The notes under the pieces: generated by a model | Database searches by the model: none | What the model was told of the DNA's origin: nothing | The model's input: the letters and a program-made list of their open reading frames with translations, nothing else | From: Verrucomicrobiota bacterium | GTDB taxonomy: Bacteria > Verrucomicrobiota > Verrucomicrobiia > Limisphaerales > VHDF01 | DNA length: 51,259 nt | NCBI GenBank assembly: GCA_016871495.1 | Contig: VHDF01000032.1 | Location: 1 to 51,259, forward strand | Direction: 5' to 3' | Program-made: the position numbers and the translations under genes | Shown: piece by piece, positions 37,238-51,259 of the stretch | Position numbering within the stretch: position 1 is the first letter of the stretch | How the letters are laid out: the number at the start of each line of letters is the position of its first letter

Positions 37238-40027
37238 TCAGAACGGCTGCTTGCCTCGCTCGAACCACGCTTCGATCTCGGATTGGAGCGTGCGGCAAAT
37301 CTGCTGAACCCTGGATTCACCCGTGACGGGAAGCCCCGCGTGTTCGCCCACCCCCTCCACGGCATAGAACACGTCGGTGACGGCTCCGTTCTCCGTGCAA
37401 ATCTTCGCCAACTGCAGGTCGAGCTGAAGTTTTGCCAGGGTTTTGGAGATGACGTAGAGCAAACCCGAGCGATCCGGGGCGATGACCTCAATGGCCGTGC
37501 GCTTGGAGGAAGCGCGGTTATCAAGCTTCACTTCAACCGCCAATTCCCTCACTTCGATCCACGCCGGAACGGCTTCCGCCCTGATCGCCTGACGAACCTC
37601 CGCGTCAAGATCGAGTCTTCCCGCGAACAGCTTCTCCAGGTTTTCCTCAAACCCGGATCGGCGGGCCGGCGACGCGTAAGGGTTCTTGCCGGATTCCTGG
37701 ACATAGAAGGTGTCGATCGCGATGCCGTCGTTTCGCGTGAAGACTTGCGCTCCCAGAATGCTCAGGCCGGAGGCTGACAACGATCCCGTCAGACGGCTGA
37801 AAAGCCCGGCTCGATCCCAAGTGCAGATGCGCGCCTCGGTAAACCCTCGGTCCACGTCGTCGTGCCAGCGCACGACAGGCTTGGAATTCCCGCTTCCCTC
37901 GCGCAGGCGGCTTTCCTTGAACTCCCGCACCATGCGGATGTCGCCCAAAATCGTCGGGGCTTCGAAGACGCGAAAGTATCGGGAGGGCATGCCTTGAAAA
38001 TGAGCGTCGACGTCCTCGGCCTCCACCACCCCCCGGCCAAGCCGGCGCACCTCCTGCGACAGGTGCTGCTCCAGGACCTGCTGGGTCGATATCCGGTGGG
38101 TTTGCTCGAGCAACAATTCGGCCGCGCGGGTGTAAAGCGTCCAGATCAGCGAGTCCTTGAATCCGTTCCACATCTGATTGTTGGTGCCCAGCGAATCGGA
38201 TCGTGTAAGCAGCAGCAGCATGCGCAACTGATCCATGGAACCCACCCGTTGGGCGAATTCCTGGATTTCGGCGGGGTCGTCCAAGTCGCGCTTCTGCGAA
38301 ACCTGGGCCATGAGCAGATGATGCTCGACGAGGAAGAGCAAGTTTTCCTCAGCGGCGGGATCGAGTTGAAGGCGCCGGGCCACGCGAGCGGCGATTTTCA
38401 CCCCGGAGATTTCGTGCCGCTCCCCTTTCTCGGCCTTGCCGGCGTCGTGCAACAGGAGAGCCAGGGACAGCACATGGGGAGCGTCCAATCCTCGAAAAAC
38501 CTCGAGATAACGCTGATCGGAACACTGCTGATCGTTCCAAAGTTCATCGAGTTTCTCGAGGCAAACCAGCGTGTGCTCATCCACGGCGTATTGGTGAAAA
38601 AACTCGTGCTGCACCTTGCACGTAAGACGGCCGAACTCGGGCAGATAACGCCCCAGCAAACCCGCTTCGTGCATCTCGTGCAACACGCGGCCCACCTGGC
38701 CGCGATAACCCAGGATTTCGAGAAAGGTGGTCCGCACGTGCTCGTCCTTGAGAAACTCGCGGTCCACCAATCCCAAGCTTTGTTTCACGAGCTGAACGGT
38801 GTGGGGATGCAGCACCACCTGGCGGCTTTGGGCATGAAGAAACAAGCGCATGAGCCGCCGCGGGTCCGCCTGGATCACCTGCTCATGCTCGGGATACACC
38901 TCCCCGTCGATGAACTTGAAGCCATCGACCGGATACTGGGCCCGTTCCTTGCGCTGCTGGAGAAACTGTTTAAACGTGGGCAGCCGCTTGGGTTGCGGCA
39001 GGAGCGCCAATCGCCGCTCGACCGTCTTGGTGGTCAGATACACGTTCCGCATGTGCGCATACAAATCGCCCATGAACTCCTCCAGCCTCCCGCTGGGGGA
39101 GCGGCTGGAATAGCCCAAGCCCGTCGCCACGGAAGGCTGAAAGCTCTTATGCAACACATCGATCCGCTTCGCGTAGCGGAAATGCAGCTCGTTGCGCACA
39201 CGGAGAAGAAAATCATGCGCCGCATGAAGCGCCTCCCGCTCTTCCGCGGTGATGTGTTTCTGGGACTCAAGCGCCTCCAAGGAACGCGCCCCGTACCGAA
39301 ACCGCGCCATCCACAGCAGGTTCTGGTAGTCCCGCAGCCCGCCACACCCGTTCTTGAGGTTGGGCTCCACCATGCAGGCCGAATTTCCAAACTTGGAACG
39401 GCGATCGATCTGATCTTGCAGCCGCATCTCGATGTATTCGTTCTCGTGGCCATGAACGCACTTGTCCGCCAAAACTTTCGAAAACTCGGAAAAAAGGCCG
39501 CGGTCTCCCGCCAGCAGTCGAGTTTCCAGGAAAGCGGTTTTTGAAACCATGTCCTGATTGGCATGCCGAATCGCCTCGTCGATCGAAAAGCAGAGGGGAT
39601 TCGACTCCAACCCCAAATCCCAGAGCAATCCCTCCCCCGCCACACACTGCACCCAGGGATGATCCCTGACACCTTTCTTTAACGTTCCGTCGTGGAGAAA
39701 AAGAAGGTCCACGTCGCTGCAGGGGCTCAGTTCCTCGCGTCCGTACCCGCCATGAGCCACCACCGCCAGCCGGGGCAACCGCGCCGGCGATCCGTTCCCC
39801 AAGGGAATCCCGGCCAGCACCGAAGCGAGAAACAAATCCAGAGCCCCCGAGCATGCCGTGCAAAGCTCCCGCCCGCCCGCGCCCTCCTCATGCCATTCTC
39901 TCAAGCGGCGATTCGCCCAGGGAAGAAACTCTTTGAAGCGCGGGAGCGCGTCGCGAACATGGGACTCCGGAGCGACCGCCAGTTTCAACGCGGCCTCGGT
40001 CCGGATGACATCGAAAACTCGGGACAC
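37238..40027 (-). CDS. glnD: PII uridylyltransferase / uridylyl-removing enzyme GlnD
   Basis: GlnD senses glutamine and adds or removes UMP on PII signal proteins, thereby controlling nitrogen assimilation. The 929-residue protein has the nucleotidyltransferase domain (VVAHGGYGREELSPCSDVD), the GlnD central part, the HD domain for UMP removal (HQYAVDEHTL, LALLLHDAGK, HEISGVKIAARVA) and two C-terminal ACT domains (RICTWDRAGLFSRLTGSLSA, IEVIAPDRSGLLYVISKTL). Length is close to E. coli (890). The start is GTG 40027, since the upstream XRE-metallo-beta-lactamase gene ends 10 bp earlier. No PII (glnB) gene is in the window, although a type II glutamine synthetase lies about 10 kb away. Confidence 0.96.
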   Translation of the reverse strand: MSRVFDVIRTEAALKLAVAPESHVRDALPRFKEFLPWANRRLREWHEEGAGGRELCTACSGALDLFLASVLAGIPLGNGSPARLPRLAVVAHGGYGREELSPCSDVDLLFLHDGTLKKGVRDHPWVQCVAGEGLLWDLGLESNPLCFSIDEAIRHANQDMVSKTAFLETRLLAGDRGLFSEFSKVLADKCVHGHENEYIEMRLQDQIDRRSKFGNSACMVEPNLKNGCGGLRDYQNLLWMARFRYGARSLEALESQKHITAEEREALHAAHDFLLRVRNELHFRYAKRIDVLHKSFQPSVATGLGYSSRSPSGRLEEFMGDLYAHMRNVYLTTKTVERRLALLPQPKRLPTFKQFLQQRKERAQYPVDGFKFIDGEVYPEHEQVIQADPRRLMRLFLHAQSRQVVLHPHTVQLVKQSLGLVDREFLKDEHVRTTFLEILGYRGQVGRVLHEMHEAGLLGRYLPEFGRLTCKVQHEFFHQYAVDEHTLVCLEKLDELWNDQQCSDQRYLEVFRGLDAPHVLSLALLLHDAGKAEKGERHEISGVKIAARVARRLQLDPAAEENLLFLVEHHLLMAQVSQKRDLDDPAEIQEFAQRVGSMDQLRMLLLLTRSDSLGTNNQMWNGFKDSLIWTLYTRAAELLLEQTHRISTQQVLEQHLSQEVRRLGRGVVEAEDVDAHFQGMPSRYFRVFEAPTILGDIRMVREFKESRLREGSGNSKPVVRWHDDVDRGFTEARICTWDRAGLFSRLTGSLSASGLSILGAQVFTRNDGIAIDTFYVQESGKNPYASPARRSGFEENLEKLFAGRLDLDAEVRQAIRAEAVPAWIEVRELAVEVKLDNRASSKRTAIEVIAPDRSGLLYVISKTLAKLQLDLQLAKICTENGAVTDVFYAVEGVGEHAGLPVTGESRVQQICRTLQSEIEAWFERGKQPF

Positions 40028-48232: not shown

Positions 48233-48342
48233 TGCCTCCAGAGGTTGTCGGTGACCGGGTTATCGTGGTCACGCAGACAGCCCTGTCTGCTGTTTCGCAG
48301 GCTGCCCAGCCTGCGCCACACGACAAACAACCTCTGGATGCA
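48233..48342 (+). repeat. Dispersed repeat R2, complete copy
   Basis: A 110-bp element with terminal inverted repeat TGCCTCCAGAGGTTGT (48233-48248) and ACAACCTCTGGATGCA (48327-48342), one mismatch. Inside lie two perfect hairpins, CAGACAG-CC-CTGTCTG and GCAGGCTG-CC-CAGCCTGC. It follows copy 3 of R1 by 13 bp. Between it and the PP2C stop (48343-48517) I see nothing further. Confidence 0.85.
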
Positions 48343-48517: not shown

Positions 48518-49360
48518 CTAGAGAAGTTCGATCACGATGGCGGTTGTGTTGTCCCGTCCGCTGTTCCGGACCGCATGGGCAACCAACTTTTCCGCCGGGT
48601 CTTCCTTGGCGGGCCAAGGAACGGATGGACGCAGCACATCGAGCAGGCCGGTGTCGAACAAGCCATCGATGAGACCGTCGCTGCAAATGAGAAACTTGTC
48701 GCCCGCCTCGCATTTCACCACGCCCACCTGCGGATCGACAAATTGATTCCCGCCCCCGAGCGCCTTCTGCAGCACGTTCCTTCGGGGATGCGTGCGTGCT
48801 TCCCGATCGTTAATCTGCCCCGTGCGCAACAACCAACCCACATAGGTGTCATCCTGGGTGACTTGTTTCAACTCCCCCGTGCTTTGGGGAAGATAGTAAA
48901 TCCGGCTGTCCCCCACGTGCCCCAAGTACATTCGCCCGGGCACAAACCAGCACAGGCTCAGCGTGGATTCCATCCCCGCACACTCGGCATACACCCGTCC
49001 GTGCTCAATGAGCGTGCGATGAATCTGGTCGAACAACTCGGCCAGCACATCGGGGATGCCCGCCTCCAGGCCGGCAGCCGCCAACTGAAAACACCGCGGC
49101 AAAAGCGTGGTGAGGCGTTCCGTGGCAATGTGGCTCGCGTATTCCCCGGCGTTGGCCCCACCCATGCCATCACTGACCGCGAAGGCGAAATCAACCGACG
49201 CGCTCGAAATCTCGCCGCTCTTGCCCAGGCGATGAATCTCTTTGCCGTCGTACATCAAACCGAGAAAGGAATCCTCGTTGTTCTTGCGATAGCGACCGAC
49301 ATCAGTCCAGCCGTGCCAGCGCAACCGGCCTTTGGGTTTTCCGCGTTTGGCGTAAGACAT
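48518..49360 (-). CDS. PP2C-family serine/threonine phosphatase
   Basis: PP2C enzymes remove phosphate from serine and threonine using two metal ions. All the expected motifs are present in this 280-residue protein: TDVGRYRKNNEDSFLG, FAVSDGMGGANAGEYAS (metal-binding Asp), MYLGHVGDSRIYYL, DKFLICSDGLIDGLF and NSGRDNTTAIVIEL. The gene starts 12 bp after the stop of the small kinase-like gene at 49373-49753, in the same direction, so the two are likely one transcript and functionally coupled. The start ATG 49360 is unambiguous. It is followed, after 510 bp of repeats and leader, by purA. Family members work with Hanks-type kinases; none of normal size is in the window. Confidence 0.93.
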   Translation of the reverse strand: MSYAKRGKPKGRLRWHGWTDVGRYRKNNEDSFLGLMYDGKEIHRLGKSGEISSASVDFAFAVSDGMGGANAGEYASHIATERLTTLLPRCFQLAAAGLEAGIPDVLAELFDQIHRTLIEHGRVYAECAGMESTLSLCWFVPGRMYLGHVGDSRIYYLPQSTGELKQVTQDDTYVGWLLRTGQINDREARTHPRRNVLQKALGGGNQFVDPQVGVVKCEAGDKFLICSDGLIDGLFDTGLLDVLRPSVPWPAKEDPAEKLVAHAVRNSGRDNTTAIVIELL

Positions 49361-49372
49361 GAAATAAACAAA

Positions 49373-49753
49373 TCAACCGGGCTGAAGAATGGTCGCGAAT
49401 TCGAAATCAATGACGCAAAAACGTCCGTCCGAGGGACGATAGGTCACATTGCGCATCTCCGGGTCGTCGTGACGGACACCGAAACTCTCCAACTCCGCGA
49501 AGAGTTCCCTCGTCCGTTTCTCGTCCAGGTGATCCACGCGTCCACCGCAACTGGACGTAATGAGCTTCAATTGCCCGGCATCGGCCTCCAGCACCCGCGG
49601 CACAAAAAAACATCCCTTTCGCTCGAGGTAACGCAGCACCTTGACCTCGTTGGCGAAACGTTCCGCGGCGTTCGGACCGTGAAACACCTTTACGACGCGT
49701 CCGTCGTAGGTCAGATGCACGGTGGATCGCAAGGTGTCCTTGACTTTCAGCAT
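49373..49753 (-). CDS. Small protein-kinase-fold protein (126 residues)
   Basis: The protein is far shorter than a kinase domain (about 250 residues) but shows the pattern of its active site. A lysine in VVKVF (K22) is in the place of the ATP-binding lysine, E36 in FANEVKVL is in the place of the helix-C glutamate, and the catalytic loop reads RHDDPEMRN, giving HxDxxxxN with D97 and N102. CVIDFEFA supplies DFE (116-118) in place of DFG. It looks like a compact RIO/aminoglycoside-kinase-like fold without a full C-lobe. It could be a true mini-kinase or a pseudokinase. It sits 12 bp upstream of the PP2C gene. The start is ATG 49753. No annotation is known to me. Confidence 0.7.
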   Translation of the reverse strand: MLKVKDTLRSTVHLTYDGRVVKVFHGPNAAERFANEVKVLRYLERKGCFFVPRVLEADAGQLKLITSSCGGRVDHLDEKRTRELFAELESFGVRHDDPEMRNVTYRPSDGRFCVIDFEFATILQPG

Positions 49754-50118
49754 GGCGGGCGGTCGTGGTGATGACGGGACTCGTTAAAATGGGATGATCG
49801 GAAATGAAACCGGTGTTCCGCCCAAGGAATTCATGGCTGAGCGGTCAAATGCAAGATCGGAACGTCTCCGTGTCTCGTTTTGATCAGATTGCGCAAAAAT
49901 CGCCACCATCGCAGAAGGAAAGTCGAAAGCCCATGGAGACCCCGATCCATCGATACACGATTGATGATCAATCACAAACATCGACCAAACCGGAGCGATC
50001 ATGAAAAGAACTTGCGATGGGCACGCATGGTGCTCATGGTCGGCCGTTCAAAGTGCTTTTCGGGGGCTCCGGCTCCCGCGAGATTAGAACCGTACAAACC
50101 CAAAAATACTCAGCGCAC
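49754..50118. other. Intergenic region between the kinase-like gene and glnII
   Basis: The two genes are divergent, so both promoters must be here. I looked for a sigma-54 (GG-N10-GC) site upstream of glnII and found none with correct spacing; a GG...GC pair at 49833-49852 is 4 bp too wide. No convincing open frame is present and the glnII start lacks a Shine-Dalgarno sequence. Confidence 0.4.
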
Positions 50119-51168
50119 ATGGCCAAATACAAACTCGAATACCTCTGGCTCGACGGCTACGAACCCGTCCCGAACATCCGCGGTAAGACGAAAGTGGCGG
50201 ATTACAACAGCTTCCCGAAACTGGATCAACTTCCCCTCTGGGGTTTCGATGGCAGTTCCACTCGCCAGGCCGAGGGACACAGCTCGGATTGCATGTTGAA
50301 GCCCGTCGCGCACTTCCCCGATCCCACCAAAAAGAACGGCGTGCTGGTCATGTGTGAAGTCATGATGCCGGACGGCAAGACTCCGCACGCGAGCAATTCC
50401 CGCGCGACCATTCTTGATGACCCGGACGCTTGGTTCGGTTTCGAACAAGAATACTTTCTCTACCAAAACGGAGTTCCCCTCGGCTTCCCCTGTGGCGGCG
50501 GTTATCCTTTTCCTCAGGGCGAGTACTACACCGGCGTGGGCTACCGGAACGTCGGCGACGTCGCCCGCGAAATTGTCGATACGCACCTCGACCTCTGCCT
50601 GGAAGCGGGCATCAACCACGAAGGCATCAACGCCGAGGTCGCCAAAGGACAATGGGAGTTCCAAATCTTCGGCAAGGGTTCCCGCAGCGCGGCGGATCAA
50701 ATGTGGGTCGCACGCTATCTCATGATGCGCCTCTGCGAAAAATACCGTGTCGACGTGAATTTCCACTGCAAACCTCTCGGCAAAGACGTGGATTGGAACG
50801 GCTCGGGCATGCACACCAATTTCTCGACCAAACACATGCGTGAAGTGGGCGGCAAGGAATACTTCGAAGCGCTGATGGCAGCCTTCGACAAATACAAGAA
50901 CGAACACATCGCCGTGTATGGTCCGGACAATCATCTCCGCCTCACCGGCCTGCACGAAACTCAATCCATCGACAAGTTCAACTATGGCGTGGCCAACCGT
51001 GGCGCCTCGGTCCGCGTCCCCCATAGCTTCGTGAACAATAACTATCGCGGCTACCTCGAAGACCGCCGCCCCAACAGCCAGGCGGAACCCTACAAGGTGA
51101 CCAGCCGCATCCTGCAAACGATTGCGACGGTACCGACCAAGGCCGCCAAGCCGTCGAAGGGCAAATAA
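50119..51168 (+). CDS. glnII: Glutamine synthetase, type II (eukaryote-like)
   Basis: The enzyme condenses glutamate and ammonia with ATP. The 349-residue protein is the short type II form, typical of eukaryotes and some bacteria. N-terminal KLEYLWLDGYEPVPNIRGKTK and LPLWGFDGSST give the beta-grasp domain, and WFGFEQEYFLY, INAEVAKGQWEFQIF, NFHCKPLGKDVDWNGSGMHTN and NRGASVRVPH mark the catalytic parts, including the metal-binding glutamates. ATG 50119 is chosen over the open-frame start at 50017, since the family begins with MAKYKLEY. GSII is not adenylylated like GSI, so regulation by GlnE would not apply; glnD in the same region may act via PII. A strong terminator follows. Confidence 0.96.
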   Translation: MAKYKLEYLWLDGYEPVPNIRGKTKVADYNSFPKLDQLPLWGFDGSSTRQAEGHSSDCMLKPVAHFPDPTKKNGVLVMCEVMMPDGKTPHASNSRATILDDPDAWFGFEQEYFLYQNGVPLGFPCGGGYPFPQGEYYTGVGYRNVGDVAREIVDTHLDLCLEAGINHEGINAEVAKGQWEFQIFGKGSRSAADQMWVARYLMMRLCEKYRVDVNFHCKPLGKDVDWNGSGMHTNFSTKHMREVGGKEYFEALMAAFDKYKNEHIAVYGPDNHLRLTGLHETQSIDKFNYGVANRGASVRVPHSFVNNNYRGYLEDRRPNSQAEPYKVTSRILQTIATVPTKAAKPSKGK

Positions 51169-51234: not shown

Positions 51235-51259
51235 CGCATCCAGAGGTTGTCGGTGACCG
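51235..51259 (+). repeat. Dispersed repeat R2, left end (cut by window edge)
   Basis: GCATCCAGAGGTTGTCGG at the window end matches the start of the R2 copies at 2225 and 48233. The rest lies outside. It again sits immediately behind a terminator. Confidence 0.8.

Follow-up and report, generated by a model that had tools for sequence, protein, structure and literature searches.

Glutamine synthetase under reversible covalent control is the textbook example of enzyme regulation; such control is known for the type I enzyme (GSI) through GlnE, a bifunctional protein that both adenylylates and deadenylylates it, and GlnD acts on the T-loop of PII, which it modifies at Tyr51. The type II enzyme (GSII) can be controlled by other means, as in S. 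meliloti, where its control is described as mainly transcriptional, with GstI acting on translation (PMC8829014). In cyanobacteria, Ser49 of PII is phosphorylated and PphA is the phosphatase, the kinase being unknown (PMC4285133, PMC11863333). Bacteria often carry a PP2C gene next to a kinase gene (PMC6213207). In the Stp1, PstP and PphA systems the canonical PP2C has a full-length Hanks-type kinase as its partner; PphA has a role in nitrogen control. Among small kinases, ArkI (COG2112; 8yv4, 7vnx) has a reduced fold whose metal loop reads DFE; HRD is replaced by HGQ, and subdomains IX and XI at the C-terminus include a YKR helix that binds RNA. Its PDB chains are 171–216 residues long. Bud32/PRPK, the KEOPS kinase, has a small RIO-like core, and the WbdD-type methyltransferase-kinases of glycan synthesis carry a similar small kinase module.

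The locus reported here shares something with each of these systems and coincides with none. It lies in a 51,259-nucleotide stretch of a Verrucomicrobiota contig, called the window hereafter, and comprises the following features:

49373..49753, minus strand: miniature kinase-like protein of 126 residues, the mini-kinase (open reading frame, motifs, fold model, conserved residues)
49361..49372, no strand: 12-bp spacer between the kinase stop and the phosphatase start
48518..49360, minus strand: PP2C-type Ser/Thr phosphatase of 280 residues (DGMGG, GHxGDSR, SDG and GRDN motifs; PF13672)
49754..50118, no strand: 365-bp divergent intergenic region between the kinase–PP2C pair and glnII, presumed to be a shared promoter region
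50119..51168, plus strand: GlnII, type II (eukaryote-type) glutamine synthetase of 349 residues, divergent from the kinase gene (NF041605, GSII structures)

Like ArkI, the mini-kinase has a reduced kinase fold and a DFE metal loop, but it is shorter, retains HxD and stops just past DFE. It resembles Bud32/PRPK in its small RIO-like core, with a weak sequence match, yet is shorter still and tied to PP2C and GSII. Where the Stp1, PstP and PphA phosphatases have full-length kinase partners, this PP2C has a partner of 126 residues, and the pair tracks GSII. GlnE is an analogue in two respects, its genomic slot and the way in which, being bifunctional, it controls glutamine synthetase covalently and reversibly, although its folds and chemistry are unrelated to those of the pair. 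In genome G207 (L111 4632-5999) a methyltransferase that resembles the WbdD-type enzymes carries, as a fusion, a similar miniature kinase module (HRDMNRKN, DFE; 36% identity over 105 residues), but its partner, its phylogenetic class and the substrate presumed for it all differ. In the open-access literature searched we found no description of the 126-residue kinase partner, its fusion to PP2C or its exact link to GSII.

Searches for RNA families in the region of the pair returned no match. An interspersed repeat, CCAGAGGTTGTCGGTGACCG, occurs in the window at 48238-48257, 51240-51259 and 2229-2248, with 98 copies in the genome at no more than one mismatch (control, 0); one copy sits at the extreme end of the contig, and that at 48238 falls between the purA and PP2C genes, inside inverted repeats.

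An earlier note on this DNA had read the two minus-strand genes as a compact phosphorylation switch, and had named three findings that would count against it: the lack of a kinase-like contact between N- and C-lobe, homologues away from PP2C, and a longer kinase in relatives of which this would be a 5'-truncated part. Both open reading frames lie where that note had placed them, 12 bp apart, and the motifs it had picked out are present as the beta3 lysine K22, the HxDxxxxN catalytic loop (H95-D-D97-PEMR-N102) and D116-F-E; the alphaC glutamate is E36. The mini-kinase is a genuine gene under purifying selection, not a fragment. It is present once in its own genome, and a scan of genome contigs yielded 270 candidates, the best 80 of which are relatives with 67–80% identity over 123–126 residues from many Verrucomicrobiota MAGs. 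None of the residues K22, E36, H95, D97, N102, D116 and E118 varies among 119 sequences, and F117 is present in 118 of them, while mismatch rates of 0.18/0.12/0.51 at codon positions 1/2/3 point to purifying selection and not to a chance reading frame. The start, MLKVKDTLR, is conserved, and in many relatives a stop codon lies only a few codons upstream of it, so the mini-kinase does not represent the 3' end of some longer kinase; nearly all relatives end a few residues past DFExAxxL, except in fusions, where PP2C continues. Truncation of a longer kinase is thus ruled out, since the relatives share the same short start and end. A viral or plasmid origin was also rejected, since searches of viral contigs, phages and plasmids yielded no relatives, as was a role in anti-phage defence, for which matches were negligible.

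The AlphaFold model of the mini-kinase, built with 67 relatives (pLDDT 93.8, pTM 0.87), runs from beta1–beta3 through alphaC, beta4–beta5, one helix, the catalytic loop and beta7–beta8 to DFE, and the chain ends about 8 residues later, without an activation segment or the later C-lobe helices. In the model a kinase N-lobe is joined by a minimal C-lobe. In Foldseek, the best PDB match is the archaeal RNA kinase ArkI (8yv4; E 3.4e-7, TMq 0.72), accompanied among the best matches by Bud32 of Bud32–Kae1 and by Rio2; VIA-align places PRPK first (Z 13.1, rmsd 2.7, 125 residues aligned), with Rio2 (Z 12.8) and several other kinases tied within 1 of it. A profile search for a close PDB relative gave matches at chance level only. 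The residues that define the protein-kinase-like fold (beta3 Lys, alphaC Glu, HxDxxxxN, DFx) are all in place, and there is no Pfam match to Pkinase (PF00069), whose full two-lobe domain the mini-kinase lacks. It scores above the gathering threshold for APH (PF01636; 36.6 against 23.2 bits), and 67/67 aligned family members match at E<=0.01, but its 126 residues face a 239-position profile and align best over positions 11–95, short of a full-length APH. The Bud32 equivalog (TIGR03724) gives 21.3 bits against a cut-off of 125, the Kdo kinase profile matches weakly, and membership in ArkI (COG2112) fails on the HxD with its invariant D97 and on the missing C-terminal YKR helix. Taken together, the fold matches and the absence of ArkI's C-terminal RNA-binding parts mark this as a kinase fold trimmed to its ATP site. 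With the activation segment and C-lobe gone, the model offers no obvious platform for a protein substrate.

The partner is the canonical PP2C that the earlier note had taken it for (PF13672, 2.1e-17, 63.8 bits against a cut-off of 24), with D64, G65, D151, D228 and D270 invariant. Its score to the Stp1 equivalog NF033484, 174.7 bits, falls below the cut-off of 230, and among solved sequences the nearest are bacterial PP2Cs, PphA and PstP for example. Pairing of kinase and PP2C is conserved: the phosphatase gene is directly downstream on the same strand in 100/117 mini-kinase loci and fused to the kinase in a single open reading frame in 9/117. At one further locus (L072) PP2C overlaps the kinase by about 80 nt and so fell outside the distance filter behind this count, which brings the adjacent loci to about 101/117. 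Homologues are thus found next to PP2C, and in many of them a -4 (ATGA) stop/start overlap replaces the 12-bp spacer of the window. At least two families contain fusions (f5 g14, f3 g42); the model of the fused protein shows two domains (pTM 0.68) and does not settle their mutual arrangement. Adjacency is lost in a few places. In four loci (L104, L105, L106, L108) no PP2C lies beside the kinase and PP2C adjoins GSII elsewhere in the genome (L133-L136); two (L029, L075) have kinase and GSII and no PP2C at the locus; and one more without an adjacent PP2C is at a contig end. The first four belong to a single family and share an overlap of the kinase gene with the 3' end of a gene for an MgtE-type magnesium transporter.

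The kinase–PP2C pair is linked to GSII by gene order and by exact co-occurrence. GlnII of the window matches NF041605 over the whole model (E 5.6e-110, 367.6 bits), falling short of the equivalog cut-off of 500, whereas it reaches only 49.9 bits for GSI and 29.3 bits for GSIII; it also matches type II structures and is 75% identical to S. meliloti GSII. This makes it a type II enzyme, yet one outside the curated equivalog cut-off. GSII neighbours the mini-kinase in 90/112 testable loci, divergently in 85 and, in 5, downstream in the same orientation, and the order kinase–PP2C–GSII is found in another family (L102, L103, L107, L109, L110). Among 289 genomes of the phylum, 94 of them of the same class, the mini-kinase is present in 52/94 same-class genomes; the PP2C subfamily (E<=1e-45) and the GSII of this class are in the identical 52, and the remaining 42 have none of the three (Fisher p 1e-27 by genome and 1.3e-12 by genus, uncorrected for relatedness). 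Three families (f3, f5, f11) each contain genera with all three genes and genera with none, and co-occurrence holds even where kinase and GSII are unlinked, in nine genomes (G252, G179, G269, G278, G125, G116, G131, G211, G235). Outside the class, 6 genomes have a GSII (57–61% identity) with neither kinase nor PP2C, and of two weak matches to the kinase profile, one is a methyltransferase-kinase and one an APH-type kinase, both distinct proteins. GSII is the sole glutamine synthetase in the 4 kinase-bearing genomes checked. The window's own genome (G000) holds a second glutamine-synthetase-like gene on contig C7 at 77654-78643 (L125; 345 bits to PF00120).

GlnE is scarce in the genomes that carry the pair. 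Full GlnE is found in 10/10 tested same-class genomes that have GSI or GlnE-type genes and lack the pair, and GlnE (PF03710) is absent from 14/15 kinase-bearing genomes tested, that of the window among them; the GSIII-type same-class genomes without the pair that were tested also have no GlnE. One genome, G128, is the only one tested in which the kinase/PP2C/GSII set coexists with a true GlnE. Lack of GlnD was rejected as the reason for the pair, since full GlnD is present in 52/52 kinase-bearing genomes. In the window a full-length GlnD (PII uridylyltransferase) lies at 37343-39907 on the minus strand, about 10 kb from the GSII/kinase/PP2C cluster.

The tie to GSII, absent from the earlier note, makes the control of nitrogen assimilation, not a generic switch, the likely function: because the pair is found in exactly the GSII genomes of this class, it probably provides an on/off control of nitrogen assimilation that has not been described before. 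The compact switch proposed earlier is plausible, as none of the three findings named against it was made. The link to GSII is shown; that the mini-kinase is catalytically active, that GSII is its direct substrate, which way GSII would be affected and what signal would be sensed are what we infer. We suggest, at roughly even chances, a dedicated writer and eraser in the slot of GlnE. The mini-kinase would be an ATP-binding miniature kinase that retains N-lobe, catalytic loop and metal loop and that would phosphorylate GSII, a GSII-bound protein or a close regulator; PP2C would take the phosphate off GSII or the GSII-bound regulator, and the pair would occupy in this class the place that GlnE holds in GSI genomes. 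The narrower proposal, that a kinase of about 123 residues ending at DFE and its partner PP2C reversibly phosphorylate bacterial GSII itself instead of GlnE adenylylation, we put at somewhat below even. Against the proposal, no position stood out as specific to kinase-bearing genomes when conserved Ser/Thr/Tyr were scanned across 96 GSII sequences. The GSII of rhizobia, about 75% identical, has no relative of the kinase on the same plasmids among those searched, so GSII itself has no need of the pair. The missing platform for a protein substrate, the coexistence of pair and GlnE in G128 and the two loci that have kinase and GSII but no PP2C (L029, L075) also speak against it.

A target other than GSII, namely PII (GlnB/GlnK), is unlikely but has evidence behind it. 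Here the mini-kinase would phosphorylate T-loop Ser49 and PP2C would remove the phosphate, in the manner of cyanobacterial PphA, which acts on a site whose kinase is missing. Many loci have nitrogen genes just beyond the pair (amtB in 44/83 testable loci, PII in 40/62), all 43/43 PII sequences from pair loci carry Ser49 in the T-loop RGSEYTVDF, and the best PDB matches of the PP2C family include structures of PphA, among them 2j82 (named as PphA after PMC6213207). Conversely, PII of same-class genomes without the pair has the same Ser49 T-loop, so Ser49 does not track the kinase and was dropped as a specific target, PII being retained as a rival only. Moreover, the GlnD of every kinase-bearing genome acts on this same loop at Tyr51, and the exact co-occurrence is with GSII, PII being more widespread.

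That the mini-kinase does not work as a kinase at all, and is instead a pseudokinase that binds nucleotide or senses phosphate and regulates PP2C while another kinase sets the marks, strikes us as quite improbable. The half-length domain without an activation segment would fit such a regulator, as would the conserved pairing and the fusions modelled as two domains. All catalytic and metal-binding residues are invariant, however, which is unusual for a pseudokinase, and the kinase gene lies away from PP2C in four genomes, so that gene order does not demand an obligate complex. Very unlikely, finally, is a small-molecule or RNA kinase of APH-like or ArkI-like type in nitrogen metabolism with PP2C acting elsewhere, since the above-threshold APH score and the best structural match to an RNA kinase that also has DFE are set against a catalytic-loop Asp that ArkI (HGQ) lacks, the absent YKR helix, and the ties to a protein phosphatase, by fusion and by exact co-occurrence, that argue for a protein substrate.

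If the pair does act on GSII or its close regulators as we propose, it would represent a new covalent control of glutamine synthetase, and the mini-kinase would rank among the smallest active kinase folds, raising the question of how little of a kinase suffices for catalysis. The pair is also a lead on the phosphorylation of other PP2C-controlled nitrogen proteins whose kinase is missing, such as cyanobacterial PII. As a dedicated kinase/phosphatase pair in perfect step with GSII throughout a class, it would add another solution to the problem of controlling glutamine synthetase.
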